This document shows, piece by piece, positions 2,570-18,944 of a stretch of DNA of 64,000 nucleotides (position 1 is its first letter; each line of letters opens with the position of its first letter). The DNA comes from Bacteroidia bacterium (GTDB lineage Bacteria; Bacteroidota; Ignavibacteria; UBA10030), in contig BQML01000022.1 in assembly GCA_022180565.1 (NCBI GenBank), positions 1 to 64,000 on the forward strand. The letters run 5' to 3'. The notes beneath the pieces were generated by a model that was not told where the DNA came from, did no database searches, and saw nothing but the letters and a program-made list of their open reading frames with translations. A program made the position numbers and the translations under genes.

Positions 2570-4985
<2,416 letters not shown>

Positions 4986-5009
4986 GAGTTCATCTCACTC
5001 CCTTGTTCT

Positions 5010-5309
5010 TCATCCACCCTCTTCCCCCTTTACCGTCTTCGGTACCTTGAAGAACTTGTCCGTTTTTGCCGGGGCGTTCATCAGGGCCTCCTCGGCGGTC
5101 AATCCCGGCCTCACCACATCGTCCCTCATCCTGTTCTGCAGGTCGATCACGTGGGACAAGGGTTCTACGGTCGCCGTATCCAGTTGATTGAGTTTCTCGA
5201 CGTACTCGAGAATCCGGTTTAGTTGATGAGTGAACTTTTGTTTTTCTTCTTCCGAAAACTCGAGCCGGGCGAGCTTTGCGATATGTTCGACATCCTTTAC
5301 CGTGACCAT
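5010..5309 (-). CDS. gatC: Asp/Glu-tRNA amidotransferase subunit C
   Basis: 99 residues, normal for GatC, which stabilises the GatA/GatB complex that converts Glu-tRNA(Gln) or Asp-tRNA(Asn) to the amidated form. The N-terminal EHIAKLARLEFSEEE, the coiled ILEYVEKLNQLDT and the late FFKVPKTV motif are diagnostic. It leads the gatC-kdsB-pyrG run. No gatA or gatB is nearby. Its 5' flank is occupied, from 14 nt upstream of the ATG, by a 91-bp array of 7-bp units, and no Shine-Dalgarno site is visible. Confidence 0.95.
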   Translation of the reverse strand: MVTVKDVEHIAKLARLEFSEEEKQKFTHQLNRILEYVEKLNQLDTATVEPLSHVIDLQNRMRDDVVRPGLTAEEALMNAPAKTDKFFKVPKTVKGEEGG

Positions 5310-5322
5310 GGGAGAGACACTT

Positions 5323-5413
5323 GGTTTAAGGTTTAAGGTTTAAGGTTCAAGGTTTAAGGTTTAAGGTTCAAGGTTTAAGGTTTAAGGTTCAAGGTTTAAG
5401 GTTTAAGGTTCAG
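5323..5413 (+). repeat. 13-unit heptanucleotide tandem array (GGTTTAA)
   Basis: Thirteen contiguous 7-bp units: GGTTTAA or GGTTCAA, the last GGTTCAG. After one leading unit they form a higher-order 21-bp period (TTTAA, TTTAA, TTCAA) four times. The array sits directly upstream of gatC (start codon at 5309 on the reverse strand) and downstream of plsC. Nothing else is recognised in the 165-bp gap. Confidence 0.97.
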
Positions 5414-5475
5414 AGTTTTCCCGATGCAGCGTCGGTGTCGTCGAGTTCGGTTTCAATGATCCACACTGGAAATTC

Positions 5476-6180
5476 TCATTCCGGTTCCACAAAGTTCCGT
5501 TCCATGACGGCCCTGACTTCTTTCATCAGCGCGATCTCCCCTTCCTTGCCCCGGAATCCTGACGTGTCGATCGGCGGTTCGATCACGATCTCAATGTCGG
5601 TCGGACGGACTTTCAACGATCCTTTGGGGAGGATGCGGAAGCTGTGATTGATGGTCACAGGCACAATCGGTACACCCGACTTCATCGCAAGCACAAAGGC
5701 GCCGCGCTTGAAGGGCTGAAGTCTGCCATCCTTCGTCCGTGTTCCTTCAACAAACAACAAAACCGAGGCACCGCTCCGAATCTGGTCAGCAGCCTTATCG
5801 AGACTTCGGAGCGCGTCCTTCGGGCTTGCACGATCAACGGCAATATAGGGCCCGTACTTCAGCGCCCAACCCCAGATCGGAACAGCGGTCAACTCCCGTT
5901 TCAGCATGATTCGGATGTCATCCGGAATCCCGGCGATGGCGGCCGGGATGTCGAACCAGCTTGCATGGTTCGATGCGTAGATCACGCGTCCCCGTCCGGC
6001 ATGTTCCTTTCCTCTCACCTTCACCCGGATCCCGAAAATCCACAGGATGAACTTTGACCAGTGGCGGGCGCACATATGATAGGTTCGACCGCTCCGGTCG
6101 ATCGGAATCGACACCAGGGCGAGGATTGAATACGGAATCGCCACCAACAGAACCAGGAAACCTTTCAGCAGAGCGATCAT
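5476..6180 (-). CDS. plsC: 1-acyl-sn-glycerol-3-phosphate acyltransferase
   Basis: The frame is open further upstream, but the ATG at 6180 gives a normal 234-residue PlsC starting MIALLKGFLVLLVAIPYSIL, a membrane helix. Acyltransferase motif I is NHASWFD (His72, Asp77), motif III is FVEGTRTK (Glu145 to Arg148), and VPIVPVTI follows. It transfers an acyl chain to lysophosphatidate at the inner membrane in phospholipid synthesis. It follows the M48 protease gene by 67 nt on the same strand. Confidence 0.94.
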   Translation of the reverse strand: MIALLKGFLVLLVAIPYSILALVSIPIDRSGRTYHMCARHWSKFILWIFGIRVKVRGKEHAGRGRVIYASNHASWFDIPAAIAGIPDDIRIMLKRELTAVPIWGWALKYGPYIAVDRASPKDALRSLDKAADQIRSGASVLLFVEGTRTKDGRLQPFKRGAFVLAMKSGVPIVPVTINHSFRILPKGSLKVRPTDIEIVIEPPIDTSGFRGKEGEIALMKEVRAVMERNFVEPE

Positions 6181-12339: not shown

Positions 12340-13560
12340 CTACGGAATGACGACGAGCTTTTTGATGTGCCTTTCTCCACCGGCATTCAATTCGAGGAAA
12401 TACACGCCTGCGGCGCGAGATGCAGTCCATACAAAGTCATGCACACCGCTTGCGGAGAGCCTTTCGTCCGCTGACCACACTACCTGGCCGAGCAAGGTAT
12501 ACATTCTGAGCTGAATGAGGGACTCGCGCCGAAGAGAAAATCTGATGCGTATCGGAACTCTGGGATCGGACGGAACGGGGTGCGGGAACACCTGAAAAAT
12601 TTCCACGACACTTTCCGACGCATGTGAACGGGATTTTCCCGTGGAGACAGGAACATCAAACACCAGGTCGCAAACGACGGGAAGATGATCGGACGCTTCA
12701 TGGAGGGCATGGGCGACGCTGTCATGCACAGCGTTGTTTGGAGGGCGGCTGATGGAATCATTATAATGGAGCCCATCATTGCCAAAGGCGCGGTATGATC
12801 CCGGCACTATCCGAATTCCTTCCCCGTCACGGATGGACGGAGAGACGAGGATCATATCGAACCGGTCATCAAGTCCTCCAACAGCCCCACCTGCAAAGGC
12901 CCTCAGGCGGGTTGATTGGGTGTGATGGATCGCATTGGTTGCCGAATTCCAACGGCCCGTGATGCTCACCGGATCAACAGCATGTCCTCGGGAGGTTCCG
13001 GAATCTGTCAGTTTCCTGTAGGCCGGTTCATCGGGGCCATAGATGTTGAAGTCCCCGACAACAATGAAATCAGAGCCTTCGGGAAGCCGATTGGTCACGG
13101 CCCGAAGACTGTCCGCCTCGGCCGCGCGTTTGAGCGAATCTTCAAGACCTGCATTCAAGTGAACGCCGAAAATACGAATGATCCGTCCTGTCTGCACATG
13201 TTTCAGAACGAACTCGTTGATATCGCGTAAGGCTGTTCTGATTGGGTTGTTTTCGAGAAAGAGAAAGAAAGCCGGCTTGTAGAAGATGGCGTTGTCGGAA
13301 TCGGGCCCGTCACGGAGAATTCCCACCGCGTACTCTTTGTTGTTCGCATTCAGAACGTTAAACAGGAATCCAGGCACGGCACGGACCGAATCGATCTCCT
13401 GAACAACCAATATGTCTGGCCGAACGGATTGGATGACCGTCCGAAAATGCGCGTCGCGGACGTTGTCGCCGTAGCGAAGAAGGTTGTAGGTCATGATCCT
13501 GACCGTATCCTGCGCGGCAGAGAGAAATGGGAAAAGAAGAAAAATGATGATCCGCCCCAA
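12340..13560 (-). CDS. Secreted endonuclease/exonuclease/phosphatase with sorting domain
   Basis: No ATG lies near the N-terminus; TTG at 13560 gives the short signal (M)GRIIIFLLFPFLSAAQ, while TTG at 13605 gives a longer one, so the start is uncertain. The EEP fold runs to about residue 310: RIMTYNLLRYG, DILVVQEIDS, IFGVHLNAG, FIVVGDFNIYGPDE, DDRFDMILVS and EASDHLPVVCDL carry the usual Asn, Glu, Asp-Asn and Asp-His catalytic pairs. The tail (VFPHPVPSD, YTLLGQVVW, AAGVYFLELNAGG, KKLVVIP) is a sorting domain. It is probably an extracellular nuclease or phosphatase. Confidence 0.85.
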   Translation of the reverse strand: MGRIIIFLLFPFLSAAQDTVRIMTYNLLRYGDNVRDAHFRTVIQSVRPDILVVQEIDSVRAVPGFLFNVLNANNKEYAVGILRDGPDSDNAIFYKPAFFLFLENNPIRTALRDINEFVLKHVQTGRIIRIFGVHLNAGLEDSLKRAAEADSLRAVTNRLPEGSDFIVVGDFNIYGPDEPAYRKLTDSGTSRGHAVDPVSITGRWNSATNAIHHTQSTRLRAFAGGAVGGLDDRFDMILVSPSIRDGEGIRIVPGSYRAFGNDGLHYNDSISRPPNNAVHDSVAHALHEASDHLPVVCDLVFDVPVSTGKSRSHASESVVEIFQVFPHPVPSDPRVPIRIRFSLRRESLIQLRMYTLLGQVVWSADERLSASGVHDFVWTASRAAGVYFLELNAGGERHIKKLVVIP

Positions 13561-13723
13561 GAGGACCCCCTGCAGGAAGATGGGGATTCTTGGATAGAGA
13601 GTCAAGAGGCAGGGTGGATTTCGGATTTCCCCGCCCGACCAAAGATGATCGAATCATGTTCGGCCCGACGGCGGGTCGGGTTTCAAGTTCAGTTGAAACA
13701 TGGAACCTCAAACCAAACTTTGC

Positions 13724-13729
13724 TATATT
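13724..13729 (+). promoter_or_regulatory. Extended -10 element before the GO-repair operon
   Basis: TGCTATATT (13721-13729) is an extended -10. No good -35 stands at normal distance (TTGAAA at 13693 is 25 bp away). The -10 ends 5 nt before the first ATG at 13735, so either the message is nearly leaderless or the real promoter is further upstream. A GC hairpin, CCCGAC/GTCGGG, lies in the same divergent gap. Confidence 0.35.
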
Positions 13730-13734
13730 CCGAC

Positions 13735-14127
13735 ATGACGAAGGTTGCCGTAGGCATTCTCGAGCGTAACGGAGCTCTGTTGGTGTGTCAAAGAAAGAAG
13801 GGAAGCCGGTACGGACTCAAGTGGGAATTTCCGGGCGGAAAGCTTGAGGCCGGAGAAACCGTGGACCAATGTCTGAGGAGGGAGCTTGCAGAGGAGTTAT
13901 CAATTCACATTCAACACATTGACAGGATTGACGTGCGCACATCGCACTACAAGGATGGGGGTCTGTTTGAGGTTGCCTACTGTTTTGTCACTCAATTTGA
14001 AGGTGAGCCTCGCAACAACGTGTTTGAGCAAATCCGGTGGGTTCGGCCTGAAGAACTTCCGGGCCTGGATCATCTGGAGGGTAATGCAGAGCTTGTGAGC
14101 ATGCTTGCCGGTTCCGGCACATCATGA
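13735..14127 (+). CDS. mutT: MutT-like Nudix hydrolase (8-oxo-dGTP diphosphatase)
   Basis: 130 residues from the ATG at 13735; upstream in-frame sequence is a shadow of the divergent gene. Opening KVAVGILERNGALLVCQRKK and KWEFPGGKLEAGE are MutT-like, and the Nudix box is G-x5-E-x7-REL-x-EE, with Ser in place of the usual Gly after EE. The WEFPGGK segment is typical of enzymes that sanitise 8-oxo-dGTP. The stop overlaps the start of the mutY-like gene by 4 nt (ATGA), which fits a GO repair operon. Confidence 0.9.
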   Translation: MTKVAVGILERNGALLVCQRKKGSRYGLKWEFPGGKLEAGETVDQCLRRELAEELSIHIQHIDRIDVRTSHYKDGGLFEVAYCFVTQFEGEPRNNVFEQIRWVRPEELPGLDHLEGNAELVSMLAGSGTS

Positions 14128-15017
14128 CACGTCGTCGTCCGCCCTCCCGATCCCTTCCTCTGCTTCGCCGTTCCATCACTGCCTGGTATCGCTCAAATGG
14201 GCGGAAGCTTCCCTGGCGACAAACACGCGATCCTTACAAGATTCTGCTTTCCGAGGTCATGCTTCAGCAGACCCAGGTGGCACGGGTCCTGCAGAAATAC
14301 CCCCGCTTTGTCGGTCGATTCCCTACGTTCACTGCGCTGGCCGGGGCCTCAAAAGCGGCCGTCATCAGGGCTTGGAGCGGGATGGGCTACAACAACCGGG
14401 CGGTCAGATTGCGCGAGCTGGCGCGAATCGTCCGTACGCAATACGGCGGAAAGCTTCCGTCGGACACGGAAGAGCTGCAGAGGTTACCCGGCGTCGGTAA
14501 ATACACGGCGCACGCGGTCGCGTGTTTCGCCTTTGGGAAGAGAGTTCCTCTGGTTGACACAAACATCGCCCGCGTGCTGAGCAGGCTTTTTCCGCAGATC
14601 AGCGATCGCTGGCATGCGGCCGAGTGGGCACTCCCCAAACGCAGCGCGTACGACTGGAACCAGGGATTGATGGAACTTGGCGCGACCGTGTGCACAAGTG
14701 CGCGCCCTGATTGTGCCCGATGTCCCGCCGTTCGCGTTTGTCCGAGCGCGTTCGTTGCGGCAAGGCGAAAGACGGCGGCGCAAAAGCGCGAGCCGGGGCG
14801 GGACGGGGTGCCGAACCGCATCTACCGGGGCCGCATCATCGAACTGCTCCGCCGAAAGCCGGGGAGCGGGGTGTCGGAGATTGGTAAGCACATAAAGACC
14901 GGGTATTCAGACCGGGACCGTCGATGGCTCCTCAGTATTCTGGGGAAGCTTGAAAAGGACGGCTTGGTCCAAACCAGGCCTGTCGGCAACGGTCGGAGGG
15001 TGCAGCTTGCATCATGA
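14124..15017 (+). CDS. mutY: MutY-like A/G-mismatch adenine glycosylase lacking the NUDIX-like domain
   Basis: 297 residues. HhH-GPD core: LPWRQTRDPYKILLSEVMLQ (Glu44 equals MutY catalytic Glu37), helix-hairpin-helix LPGVGKYTAHAV, catalytic Asp145 in VDTNIARV, and a [4Fe-4S] loop Cys190-x6-Cys197-x2-Cys200-x5-Cys206. The C-terminal NUDIX-like domain that recognises 8-oxoG is absent; about 65 residues resembling a winged helix (GVSEIGKHIKTGYSDRDRRW) take its place. Tyr127 in the hairpin recalls actinobacterial MutY and the archaeal T:G enzyme MIG. Translationally coupled on both sides by ATGA overlaps. Confidence 0.88.
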   Translation: MTRRRPPSRSLPLLRRSITAWYRSNGRKLPWRQTRDPYKILLSEVMLQQTQVARVLQKYPRFVGRFPTFTALAGASKAAVIRAWSGMGYNNRAVRLRELARIVRTQYGGKLPSDTEELQRLPGVGKYTAHAVACFAFGKRVPLVDTNIARVLSRLFPQISDRWHAAEWALPKRSAYDWNQGLMELGATVCTSARPDCARCPAVRVCPSAFVAARRKTAAQKREPGRDGVPNRIYRGRIIELLRRKPGSGVSEIGKHIKTGYSDRDRRWLLSILGKLEKDGLVQTRPVGNGRRVQLAS

Positions 15018-15658
15018 GTGGAAAGGGACAACGGGAAAAAGCTTTTGAAGCCCTGCGAGAGCTTCACAAGAAAAAGCGCTCTGCGCTTAGACGCCGGTTG
15101 TCCGAATTCTCGTCCGTTTCCCCGTCTGACTATTTCTATGAACTCGCTTACTGCCTCTTGACACCTCAGTCCAGCGCGAGACATGCCGCCCGTGTCGTGG
15201 AGATGTTGAGAAAAGCATCGTTCCGGGAGACTGGGCTCAATCCGGAACCTTTTCTTCGCGAGCGATCCTGCTATATTCGCTTTCACAGAACCAAGGCCCG
15301 TCATTTGCTTCTCGCCCGGGAGCAGTTTTCGAGAGTGATGGAAACCCTTGGCAACGGACATCCGGCAAGCGAACTGCGCGAATGGCTTGTCAGAAACGTC
15401 AAGGGACTCGGATACAAGGAAGCTACGCATTTTCTGAGAAACATCGGGAAGAACAACGGCCTGGCGATTCTGGACCGGCATATTCTGCGAAACCTTCAGC
15501 GCCATGGCGTTCTCCGTTCGATCCCACCCTCATTGTCGCGCAAGAAATACCTGGCGATAGAACGTCGGTTCGGAATATTCGCCGAACGAATCGGCATTCC
15601 GGTTGACGAGCTCGACTTGCTGTTCTGGAGTATCGAAACGGGGGAAATACTGAAGTAA
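15014..15658 (+). CDS. 8-oxoguanine DNA glycosylase/AP lyase, Ogg2-like
   Basis: 214 residues. The helix-hairpin-helix NVKGLGYKEATHFLRNIG carries the Lys (135) that forms the Schiff base, and AILDRHILRNL carries the catalytic Asp154, the arrangement of the Ogg2 family known best from archaea and thermophiles. The N-terminal DYFYELAYCLLTPQSSAR also fits. No iron-sulfur cluster is present. It would excise 8-oxoG opposite C, completing the MutT-MutY-Ogg set. It overlaps mutY by ATGA. Confidence 0.88.
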   Translation: MSGKGQREKAFEALRELHKKKRSALRRRLSEFSSVSPSDYFYELAYCLLTPQSSARHAARVVEMLRKASFRETGLNPEPFLRERSCYIRFHRTKARHLLLAREQFSRVMETLGNGHPASELREWLVRNVKGLGYKEATHFLRNIGKNNGLAILDRHILRNLQRHGVLRSIPPSLSRKKYLAIERRFGIFAERIGIPVDELDLLFWSIETGEILK

Positions 15659-15693: not shown

Positions 15694-16842
15694 ATGAACT
15701 ACCTCATTCTTGGTTCCGGGCTCATGGGTGGCGCGTTGGCGTATGACCTTTCGCGCTCGCCCGGTGTCACTTGTGTAACATTGGCAGATGCCGACGAGGG
15801 AAAGGCCGTTGAAGCCGCGCGCCGAATCGGTTCGGACGTGATCCGCCCGCTTCGTTTGGACGTGGAATACTACGACGACGTCCTCAGGGTGCTCCAGGGG
15901 CACGATTGTGCCATCGGGGCTGTTTCGTACCGTTTCAATCATTTGCTCACCCAAGCCTGCATTGAGGCCGGCGTCCACTTCTGCGACCTGGGCGGAAATC
16001 AGGACGTGGTGGACCGCCAGCGGACTTTGCACGACCGAGCAGTGAAACGCGGTGTGACGATCGTGCCGAATTGCGGGCTCGCGCCCGGCCTCGCCAACGT
16101 TCTTGCCGCGCGGGGAGCAGAGCAGTTTGAGCGCGTGGAGGAAATCAAGATCAGGGTCGGAGGTCTCCCTCAGCATCCCACGCCGCCCTTCAACTACCAG
16201 CTCGTTTTTTCGGTTGAAGGCCTGGTCAATGAGTACACAGGATATTCGGTCGTATTACGTGATTTCAAAAAGACCACTCTCCCGACGATGAGTGAGGTCG
16301 AAACGATCGAATTCCCTCCACCCTTCGGAACGCTCGAGGCATTTCACACTTCCGGAGGAACCTCCCTCCTTCCGGACATGTTCGCGGGGAAGGTCAGGGC
16401 GCTGGACTACAAGACCATCCGATACCCTGGTCACTGCGAGCGGTTCAGAGCCCTGCTCGACCTTGGCTTTGCATCTTCAGAGCCGATCTCAGTCGGCTCC
16501 AACGTCATGACGGCGCGGGAGGTATTTCACGAACTGCTCAAGCGCAAACTGTCCGGCTCCGATCCCGATGTCGTTCTTCTCCGCGTGACCATCCGCGGAC
16601 TGCAAGCCGGGCGCGCGCGGTCGCTGGTGTTCTCGCTGATTGACTCTTTTGACAAGAATACCAATATTAGTGCCATGATGCGCACGACGGCCTATCCCAC
16701 TTCCGTCATCGCACAGTTCATTGTCAGGGGGGTCATCACACAAAGGGGGGTTGCGACGCCCGAGCAATGCGTTCCCCTGCAGCCCTTCCTCAGGGAACTT
16801 CGTCAACGCAATTTCGACATTCGAGAGGATTGGAAAGACTGA
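15694..16842 (+). CDS. Saccharopine dehydrogenase-like oxidoreductase
   Basis: 382 residues. The N-terminal Rossmann motif is YLILGSGLMGGALAYDLSRS, followed by VHFCDLGGNQDVVDRQ and VPNCGLAPGLANVLA, the pattern of the saccharopine dehydrogenase/lysine 6-dehydrogenase group. The C-terminal half (SGGTSLLPDMFAGKV, KTIRYPGH) matches the family's substrate domain. The reaction is probably an NAD(P)-linked amino-acid oxidoreduction, substrate unknown. The stop shares a base with the yajQ start (TGATG). A short pyrimidine-rich stretch (TTTTCACTTCTTAT) precedes the ATG. Confidence 0.85.
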   Translation: MNYLILGSGLMGGALAYDLSRSPGVTCVTLADADEGKAVEAARRIGSDVIRPLRLDVEYYDDVLRVLQGHDCAIGAVSYRFNHLLTQACIEAGVHFCDLGGNQDVVDRQRTLHDRAVKRGVTIVPNCGLAPGLANVLAARGAEQFERVEEIKIRVGGLPQHPTPPFNYQLVFSVEGLVNEYTGYSVVLRDFKKTTLPTMSEVETIEFPPPFGTLEAFHTSGGTSLLPDMFAGKVRALDYKTIRYPGHCERFRALLDLGFASSEPISVGSNVMTAREVFHELLKRKLSGSDPDVVLLRVTIRGLQAGRARSLVFSLIDSFDKNTNISAMMRTTAYPTSVIAQFIVRGVITQRGVATPEQCVPLQPFLRELRQRNFDIREDWKD

Positions 16843-17339
16843 TGGCCCAGACAAATTCGTTTGATATTGTCTCCGAGGTGAATCTGCAGGAGGTGGACAA
16901 CGCACTCAACCAGGTCCGGAAGGAGATCGCCCAGCGGTACGACTTCAAGGGATCAAAGAGCTCACTGGAATTCCTGCAAAAGGAGAAGAAGATCGTCGTC
17001 ATTTCCGACGATGACTTTCGGCTGAAGAGCGTTCTGGACATTCTGCAGTCGAAAATGATCAAACGCGGCGTTCCCCTCAAGGCGCTGAAATATGGGACCC
17101 CACAACCGGCAGCCAACAGCACCCTGCGCCAGGAGATCTCCCTGCGTGTAGGCATCGAGAAGGAAGATGCAAAACTGGTTGTCAGGAAGATCAAGGATTC
17201 GAACCTCAAGGTACAGGCACAGATCATGGATGACCAAGTCAGAGTCACCGGAAAAAACAAGGACGACCTTCAGAAGGTGATCTCCATTCTGCGCGAGGCC
17301 GATTTTCCTTTTGCCATCCAGTTTGTGAACTACCGGTAA
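16842..17339 (+). CDS. yajQ: YajQ family nucleotide-binding protein
   Basis: 165 residues from the ATG at 16842, the normal YajQ length. Signature segments are NSFDIVSEVNLQEVDNALNQ, RYDFKGSKSSLEF and FPFAIQFVNYR. The family binds nucleotides; some members bind cyclic di-GMP and influence transcription. It lies between the saccharopine-dehydrogenase-like gene (1-nt overlap) and the amidase gene, which begins at the base after its stop. Confidence 0.95.
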   Translation: MAQTNSFDIVSEVNLQEVDNALNQVRKEIAQRYDFKGSKSSLEFLQKEKKIVVISDDDFRLKSVLDILQSKMIKRGVPLKALKYGTPQPAANSTLRQEISLRVGIEKEDAKLVVRKIKDSNLKVQAQIMDDQVRVTGKNKDDLQKVISILREADFPFAIQFVNYR

Positions 17340-18944
17340 ATGATGAACGTCTTTCGCGTTGTGTTCTGTGCACTGCTCGCCGCATCACCCTTCCTCCCCG
17401 CCCATGCCTCAAGCGACACGCTCTCAATCGCCCTCACCATCGAGAAGCAATCGAGCGGAACGCTCCGCGGGTTGGACCGTTCAAACGTTGTGTTTCTCGC
17501 TCTGAACGATCTGGTGTCGTCGCTGTCGCTCCCGAGCGCCGTGAATGCGGAGGTACGCAAGCTGGAATTCCGCGTTGCTTCACACCGCGTAAAAATCACC
17601 GCGGGTAATCCGTTCCTCGTCATCACGGATCTCACAACCAACGCCGCCAGCGTGTATCAGATGCCCCTGGGGGCTGTGCTGGACAACGACGTCTATTTCG
17701 TGCCTGCCGAAGAGTTTTTGAAAGCCCTGACCGTTGTATGGCCGAACGAGATCGAATTTGATCCGATCGACCTCGTCTTGTCGGTCTCTTCTGCTCCCGC
17801 CGCCCCGGCCTTCGACATCACCAACGTCGCGATCGAGCGGAAGATGAACGGTTACTTAATGACCGTGGAAGCGTCGAGAAAGCTTTCTGATGTGGAGGCG
17901 TGGCTCAAACCCGACGGATGGCTCTTTGTGACGGTCGCCAATGCAAAGGCAGACACCGCCTCACTCGCCCGCTTGCATCCCTACGGGGCGATTCGCAGGA
18001 TCCTCGTCTTCCAGTCGCCCACCTCGGTCCAACTGACGTTCAAGGTCGCGCCGGATGTTGTCAAGGCGGAGGTGTTGAACGAGCCAGGGAGCAACAATCT
18101 CCTCATCGCGCTCCACACGCAGTCGGAAGCCGAGAAGGCCGAGCTGGAGAGGCTGAGGCAGAAAATGAACCGTGAGCGATTGGAGAAGCACCAGCAGCAA
18201 TGGAAACTGGATGTGATCGTGCTCGACGCCGGCCATGGAGGGAAGGATCCGGGCACGATCGGCGTGCGCGGGACCAAGGAAAAGGATGTGACCCTTGGCA
18301 TCACGCTCCGGCTGGGAAAGTTGATCGAAAAGCACATGAAAGAGGTGAGCGTTGTCTACACCCGGAAGGATGACCGGTTTGTGGAGCTGTACAAACGGAC
18401 ACAGATCGCAAACGATGCGGGGGGGAAACTCTTCGTCAGCATCCACTGCAACTCGATGCCTCGGAAACCTTCGAACAAGAGCGGGTTTGAAATCTATCTC
18501 TTGCGTCCCGGACGAACCCAGGATGCCATTGAGATCGCCGAACGGGAGAACGCCGTCATTCGGCAGGAGGAAGGATTCGAGGAACGTTATAAGGAACTGA
18601 CCGAAGAGTATTTCATTCTCGTTACCATGCAGCAAAGCGCGTTCATGAAATACAGCGAACGGTTTGCAGGAGTGGCTACACAGGCCATGGCAAAGAGGCT
18701 GGCGATCCGGAACGGCGGGGTCAAGCAGGCAGGGTTTTACGTTCTGGTGGGCGCTTCGATGCCGAACGTGCTGGTGGAGACCGGCTACTTGTCGAACCGC
18801 CAGGAAGAGGCCGTATTGAGATCCGCGAAGGGACAGCAGGAGATCGCTCAGGCCTTGTTTGAGGGAATCAAGGAGTACAAGGCAATCTACGAAAGAACAT
18901 TGCGCGAGGAAACAGCCACCGGGGAATCCAAGAGCCAAAATTAG
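17340..18944 (+). CDS. N-acetylmuramoyl-L-alanine amidase (Amidase_3) with N-terminal AMIN-like region
   Basis: 534 residues, starting at the base after the yajQ stop (ATGATG). Signal peptide to about residue 24 (SPFLPAHA). Residues 25-270 are beta-rich and AMIN-like, probably for wall or outer-membrane targeting, followed by a charged coiled stretch (AEKAELERLRQKMNRERLEK). The Amidase_3 domain starts at VIVLDAGHGGKDPGT with zinc ligands His299, Glu314 and His369 (SIHCN), and catalytic Glu480 (VLVETGYLSN). It cleaves the glycan-peptide bond in the periplasm, probably in cell separation. Confidence 0.93.
   Translation: MMNVFRVVFCALLAASPFLPAHASSDTLSIALTIEKQSSGTLRGLDRSNVVFLALNDLVSSLSLPSAVNAEVRKLEFRVASHRVKITAGNPFLVITDLTTNAASVYQMPLGAVLDNDVYFVPAEEFLKALTVVWPNEIEFDPIDLVLSVSSAPAAPAFDITNVAIERKMNGYLMTVEASRKLSDVEAWLKPDGWLFVTVANAKADTASLARLHPYGAIRRILVFQSPTSVQLTFKVAPDVVKAEVLNEPGSNNLLIALHTQSEAEKAELERLRQKMNRERLEKHQQQWKLDVIVLDAGHGGKDPGTIGVRGTKEKDVTLGITLRLGKLIEKHMKEVSVVYTRKDDRFVELYKRTQIANDAGGKLFVSIHCNSMPRKPSNKSGFEIYLLRPGRTQDAIEIAERENAVIRQEEGFEERYKELTEEYFILVTMQQSAFMKYSERFAGVATQAMAKRLAIRNGGVKQAGFYVLVGASMPNVLVETGYLSNRQEEAVLRSAKGQQEIAQALFEGIKEYKAIYERTLREETATGESKSQN

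Follow-up and report, generated by a model that had tools for sequence, protein, structure and literature searches.

A compact mutT-mutY-ogg2 cluster in Ignavibacteria joins a predicted winged-helix MutY to an archaeal-type Ogg2

Textbooks present the GO repair system as the defence against oxidised guanine. Within it, the reading of 8-oxoG is credited to the NUDIX domain of MutY. In the window, the 64,000-nucleotide stretch of an Ignavibacteria genome that was analysed here (contig BQML01000022.1), three overlapping genes encode a MutT-type protein, a MutY-type glycosylase lacking that domain and an 8-oxoG glycosylase of archaeal type, raising the question of whether these genes form one functional set and, if so, how it would work with such components. 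We consider it probable, with good confidence, that they constitute a complete set for GO (oxidised guanine) repair, made up of a MutT-type protein, a MutYA-type MutY and Ogg2 and encoded as one operon. The pathway is known and its form is new, a compact operon joining a MutYA-type MutY to Ogg2. The features of the locus are as follows.

13735..14127, + strand: mutT-type Nudix hydrolase, 130 aa, first gene in the unit (PF00293, 77.7 bits)
14124..14127, + strand: ATGA overlap of the mutT stop and the mutY start
14124..15017, + strand: mutY-type adenine glycosylase with predicted winged-helix C-terminus (MutYA-like), 297 aa (TIGR01084 match over residues 14-219)
14148..14759, + strand: HhH-GPD and [4Fe-4S] catalytic part of the adenine glycosylase, residues 9-212 (VIA-align to MutY 5kn9)
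14787..15014, + strand: predicted winged-helix C-terminal domain, residues 222-297, at the NUDIX position (AlphaFold2 model)
15014..15017, + strand: ATGA overlap of the mutY stop and the ogg2 start
15014..15658, + strand: ogg2, 8-oxoguanine DNA glycosylase/AP lyase, 214 aa
15694..16842, + strand: saccharopine-dehydrogenase-like gene (PF16653 and PF03435), found after ogg2 in the majority of the order's named loci
16842..17339, + strand: yajQ (DUF520; NF003819, 206.4 bits), conserved neighbour; its start was taken by us as an internal ATG with a 1-nt overlap with the preceding stop
17340..18944, + strand: N-acetylmuramoyl-L-alanine amidase (PF01520, 170.8 bits), conserved downstream neighbour

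The three reading frames, their strand and both ATGA overlaps are as the original prediction had described them. Because the gene 5' of mutT (12340-13605) reads in the opposite direction, on the - strand, the rightward unit begins with mutT. The product of that divergent gene belongs to the endonuclease/exonuclease/phosphatase family and carries a sorting tail for type IX secretion, so that it is probably exported. On the other side, 35 nt separate the ogg2 stop from the start of the saccharopine-dehydrogenase-like gene, and the transcription unit probably extends past ogg2 into this gene, yajQ and the amidase gene, an order common to most named loci of the window's order. Scans for promoters (3 found versus 1.9) and terminators (10 versus 6.4) gave numbers near chance. 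With start codons picked by script, a 4-nt overlap joins mutY to ogg2 in 18/29 loci and mutT to mutY in 6/28, making the second ATGA the conserved junction. That coupled translation would set the ratio of the three proteins is a presumption, and of the two overlaps mutY/ogg2 alone is well conserved.

The first protein has the hallmarks of a Nudix enzyme. The Nudix-box residues G35, E41, R49, E50, E53 and E54 are all present in 30/30 orthologues, the last Gly of the box being Ser in the window protein. N117, equally invariant (30/30), aligns with the Asn of E. coli MutT (N119), a position that we take to serve base recognition. Because the protein does not reach the cut-off of the curated MutT model TIGR00586 (73.5 bits versus 97.9), we label it MutT-type on the basis of its sequence rather than as a certified MutT.

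The third protein is, by sequence, a solid archaeal-type Ogg2. It scores 157.6 bits against the Ogg-HhH family PF22175 (cut-off 27), 184.1 bits against NF002305 (cut-off 183) and 122.8 bits against MjaOgg (3fhf), and 27/27 orthologues have K135, D154 and, at the C-terminus, K214. The match to MjaOgg and TmaOgg (3n0u) is near full-length and the catalytic Lys/Asp pair and C-terminal Lys are shared with both; in contrast to these two, the window ogg2 lies in a putative operon with mutT and mutY. According to the accessible text of one study, the carboxyl group of the C-terminal Lys of Ogg2 overlaps the 8-oxoG-discriminating Gly42 of hOGG1, and Ogg2 enzymes show little or no opposite-base choice (PMC3397491); in the accessible part of another, the Ogg2 of T. 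volcanium cuts 8-oxoG opposite all four bases and is poorest opposite A (PMC5069365).

The original prediction also held that the 8-oxoG enzyme here is Ogg2 rather than MutM. The archaeal-type assignment stands, while our search for mutM returned one divergent Fpg/Nei-superfamily (Fapy-family) protein in the window genome (G000:C29:45937-46251, beginning MPEYPDI), so that a complete absence of MutM-like proteins is rejected. This protein, also located as L033:1438-2385 (G000:C29), has similar counterparts in relatives, and Fapy-family proteins occur in 16/41 genomes. It lies below the cut-off of the MutM model TIGR00577 (119.7 bits versus 203.3); alignment to MutM and Nei of E. coli shows that the MPE at its N-terminus and the cysteines of the zinc finger are retained, with Asn at the position of the finger Arg of both E. 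coli proteins. Ogg2 likely, if not provenly, acts in MutM's stead. The window genome also has an Nth and a third HhH-GPD-like protein (L047:1096-2022, G000:C21), which scores 41.6 bits against the OGG1 model (cut-off 397.85). The window genome gave no second MutY. At E 1e-20 or better, 31/41 genomes have a MutY match, one strong match each, with a weak second match in G002 and G033.

Is the arrangement particular to one assembly? Ogg2 was found in 37 of the 41 genomes searched, which comprise that of the window and 40 relatives. Inspection of the neighbourhood in every one of these 37 showed mutT, mutY and ogg2 in this order on one strand in 28, a recurrence beyond chance. The 28 include L005, in which mutT runs off the contig, and L020 (seen in the longer stretch L138), in which mutT lies some 250-300 nt ahead of mutY. 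The idea that the cluster is unique to the window assembly is thereby rejected, and the predicted overlapping cluster of pool sanitiser, adenine glycosylase and Ogg2 is kept well beyond it. One genome (G028) has mutY-ogg2 alone; four have mutT-ogg2 with no mutY between (G020, G026, G027 and G032) and four, all of family f2, have ogg2 without mutT or mutY, so the linkage is not essential. As to the Ogg2-less genomes, G002 carries mutT-mutY at the extreme end of a contig, which may have cut off its ogg2, and G014, G016 and G037 gave no MutY match either. A second Ogg2 with 45% identity was observed in G035 (L043, G035:C6), the first copy of which has no adjoining mutT or mutY.

Conservation of the triplet across the phylum, which the original prediction had named as a check, was not borne out: it is confined to the window's order and two other branches of the Ogg2 tree. 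In a survey of 198 genomes of the phylum, MutY was present in 171 and Ogg2 in 25, all of the latter in the window's class; for one of these, G074, the Ogg2 match is partial. Both glycosylases occur in 11 listed genomes of the class that do not belong to the order; G194 has an intact triplet (L139), and in the other 10, mutY and ogg2 either lie about 1 Mb from each other or are on separate contigs. The stretches around both genes examined in 8 of these 10 contain no mutT match. For class genomes other than those of the order, a Fisher test of the co-occurrence of Ogg2 and MutY (11, 5, 3, 17) gave p 0.0017, a value that counts listed rows only and related genomes and that we do not take as proof. 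Ogg2 loci from named database records were also surveyed. The best 80 of 580 confirmed loci comprise 18 with the triplet, 6 with mutY only, 2 with mutT only and 54 with neither, counts that are lower bounds, contig ends having cut some loci (L061, L082), and that overlap with those above, since some of these loci are the same contigs as relatives. All 18 triplets are on records titled Ignavibacteria/Ignavibacteriae, Bacteroidetes/Bacteroidota or Kapaibacterium.

Two of the six loci with mutY only, L111 and L124, have an archaeal ogg2 followed directly by a NUDIX-type MutY with the FSH motif (about 3728-5883) and represent a second, independent ogg2-mutY pairing. In two further archaeal loci, of Woesearchaeota and Aenigmatarchaeota (L087:3276-3932 and L123:3267-3935), a gene that we named by eye as endonuclease-III-like lies directly 5' of ogg2. 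Separately, the Ogg2 tree places L077, whose contig bears the title Deltaproteobacteria, within the branch of Ignavibacteria type, reflecting either transfer or a mis-binned contig.

In a tree of 90 Ogg2 rows built by a quick method, the triplet lies inside one 44-row branch (98) and there at several places, namely the window's order, L072/L078/L081/L119 and L088/L139; the starred branches require at least three label changes. An old triplet broken up in sister families and repeated assembly both fit this tree. The tree also bears on a reading in which nothing but inherited synteny is at work, mutT-mutY-ogg2 and the saccharopine dehydrogenase, yajQ and amidase genes forming a stable block and the triplet itself being unselected. 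Such a reading accounts for the conservation of the downstream genes within the order and for the tolerance of sister families to dispersal. However, the triplet is kept in L072, L078, L081, L088, L119 and L139, on separate branches of the Ogg2 tree, and neither saccharopine dehydrogenase, yajQ nor amidase was found in the flanking sequence examined for these six loci, which extends only a short way downstream in L081 and L139. The three genes hence stay together amid changing neighbours, and we regard inherited synteny alone as possible yet rather doubtful.

In the original prediction, the second protein is the A:8-oxoG glycosylase. Its catalytic part is that of a MutY. It matches HhH-GPD (PF00730, 62.4 bits) and, below the cut-off, the MutY model TIGR01084 (234.9 bits versus 286.5); E44, N147, Q180 and the cysteines C190, C197, C200 and C206 are conserved in 33/33 orthologues, and the catalytic D145 in 32/33, L005 (G012) having Glu. 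The catalytic Glu and Asp, the pocket Asn/Gln and the Fe-S motif are thus shared with the canonical MutYs of E. coli and G. stearothermophilus, from which the window protein differs in staying under the TIGR01084 cut-off and in having no NUDIX/FSH domain: no Pfam match to NUDIX_4 (PF14815) was obtained in it. The best fold match of the catalytic part is MutY 5kn9 (VIA-align, Z 27.8, rmsd 1.6, 206 residues).

The absent domain leaves room for another substrate, in which case the protein would be a general A:G mismatch glycosylase or a T/G-U/G glycosylase of the Mig kind, and the cluster a mixed base-excision operon. Mig.MthI, encoded on plasmid pFV1, shares the fold (1kea, Z 25.6) and likewise has no NUDIX domain; it is also without the additional winged-helix domain described below. 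According to the accessible portion of PMC2714593, this T/G enzyme has Ala (A50) and Leu (L187) at the positions of E. coli MutY V45 and Q182. In our alignment these positions correspond to V52 and Q180 of the window protein; the former is Val in 25/33 orthologues and otherwise Ala, as in Mig, in 6, Leu in 1 and Ile in 1, but the latter is always Gln, and the protein reads QQT where Mig has RRT. Moreover, a tree of catalytic domains separates Mig and a Halorubrum protein from other MutYs (98/95, with long branches), the gene is placed between mutT and ogg2, and archaeal MutYAs that bear a wHTH domain can stand in for MutY in E. coli, as stated in the accessible text of PMC12585504. We therefore consider the Mig-kind or general A:G assignment unlikely and retain that of an adenine glycosylase of a GO set.

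What takes the place of the NUDIX domain? AlphaFold2 modelled the whole second protein with a mean pLDDT of 94.4, and residues 222-297 alone with 91.8, as three helices and a two-stranded wing. This domain aligns with many winged-helix chains at Z about 10, and we predict from the model that a winged helix replaces the NUDIX domain. The same C-terminal tail is present in the aligned MutYs of Thermomicrobium roseum, Natrinema and Tsukamurella and is therefore widespread. Searched alone against PDB sequences, the domain gave weak mixed matches, the best (E 0.00076) to a designed repeat protein. Reading of syn-guanine in the manner of Zalpha was put low as a candidate function: the top match, to the Zalpha chain 4kmf (Z 10.4), is tied by other winged-helix chains such as 2nyx (Z 10.3), and the contact residues that we take to define Zalpha are, by eye, absent.

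The predicted architecture, HhH-GPD plus a winged-helix C-terminus, is that of MutYA, the archaeal wHTH MutY, and of MutYX, as far as these are described in the accessible text. The model of the window MutY (residues 9-295) aligns with the MutYX structure 8uuc at Z 25.1 and rmsd 3.2 over 262 residues, an entry that appears to be the Eggerthella MutYX of PMC12585504, whose accessible part reports a solved bacterial MutYX with a winged-helix C-terminal fold. Judged from the same text, the window protein differs from MutYX, which is clusterless, in retaining the four Fe-S cysteines, and from MutYA in being bacterial and linked to mutT and ogg2. MutYs of about 270-330 aa without the four cysteines were seen elsewhere in the phylum (L161 in G054:C5, L162 in G126:C12 and L163 in G186:C59); they end in a wHTH-like tail, as clusterless MutYX does, two being from family f22 and one from the window's class, and they form one starred tree branch.

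Published work, in its accessible portions, indicates that the NUDIX domain with its FSH loop gives MutY its 8-oxoG preference and that E. coli MutY deprived of it has a weaker preference for 8-oxoG:A over G:A (PMC9266487, PMC10993402). In the accessible part of a further study, mycobacterial MutY (302 aa) excises A or G opposite 8-oxoG, and R262Q in its C-terminal region abolishes complementation (PMC9876569). Mycobacterial MutY would carry the winged-helix tail too, because a 303-aa Tsukamurella protein of the same order has it. The description of the second protein as an A:8-oxoG glycosylase stands as regards the MutY pocket and Fe-S cysteines and requires revision as regards its architecture, which lacks NUDIX/FSH, has a predicted winged helix and is MutYA-like; its preference for 8-oxoG is presumed.

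Read from the sequences, the gene order, overlaps, conservation, catalytic residues and missing NUDIX domain are consistent with the following model of the GO repair set. Joint transcription of the three genes would start in the gap between mutT and its divergent neighbour (13606-13734), with probable translational coupling of mutY and ogg2. The MutT-type protein would hydrolyse 8-oxo-dGTP in the nucleotide pool, the winged-helix (MutYA-type) glycosylase would excise adenine inserted opposite 8-oxoG, and Ogg2 would afterwards excise 8-oxoG and nick the site. The likely gain is that an adenine glycosylase is made together with an 8-oxoG glycosylase less opposite-base-selective than MutM: Ogg2 cutting 8-oxoG:A would fix a mutation, which suggests a reason for co-making the enzyme that may take A out of 8-oxoG:A before Ogg2 acts on that pair.

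It is tempting to go further and speculate that the overlap aids assembly of a MutY-Ogg2 complex, perhaps with MutT, in which MutY clears A before Ogg2 cuts and, in the boldest form, the NUDIX protein reads 8-oxoG in trans. We consider such assembly quite unlikely; were it true, a promiscuous 8-oxoG glycosylase would be made safe by its neighbour. A split MutY, with the adjoining MutT-like protein providing the 8-oxoG-reading NUDIX domain in trans, would fit the facts that the usual MutY reader of 8-oxoG is a MutT-like domain (accessible text of PMC9266487 and PMC10993402) and that a MutY without it here overlaps a mutT gene, but is very improbable given that the intact Nudix box of all orthologues is most simply that of an enzyme, that four genomes have mutT-ogg2 without mutY, that the class's other winged-helix MutYs have no mutT in the stretches examined and that archaeal MutYAs function in E. 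coli (PMC12585504, in its accessible part).

Compared with the E. coli GO system of MutT, MutM and MutY, the three steps of the proposed GO set, pool sanitising, adenine removal and 8-oxoG removal, are the same, whereas Ogg2 stands for MutM and MutY has no NUDIX domain. The E. coli genes occupy distant loci in separate operons, according to the accessible part of PMC11078426, in contrast to the single overlapping cluster of the window. Our literature search, which covered paper listings and passages of PMC11078426, PMC5069365 and PMC3397491, found no published mutT-mutY-ogg cluster. In the accessible text of the Lost City study, MutY candidates without the C-terminal domain and recognition motif were dropped (649 candidates, 160 kept), and surveys filtered in this way would overlook NUDIX-less MutYs of the present type. 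The MutYA form has already been reported, as far as the accessible text shows; the operon is clean and recurrent, and its NUDIX-less MutY beside Ogg2 makes it a sharp test case. A lineage whose sole MutY lacks the NUDIX domain is a natural test of how 8-oxoG:A can be told from G:A without it, and the less selective Ogg2 in the same cluster is a natural test of how cuts at 8-oxoG opposite A are avoided.
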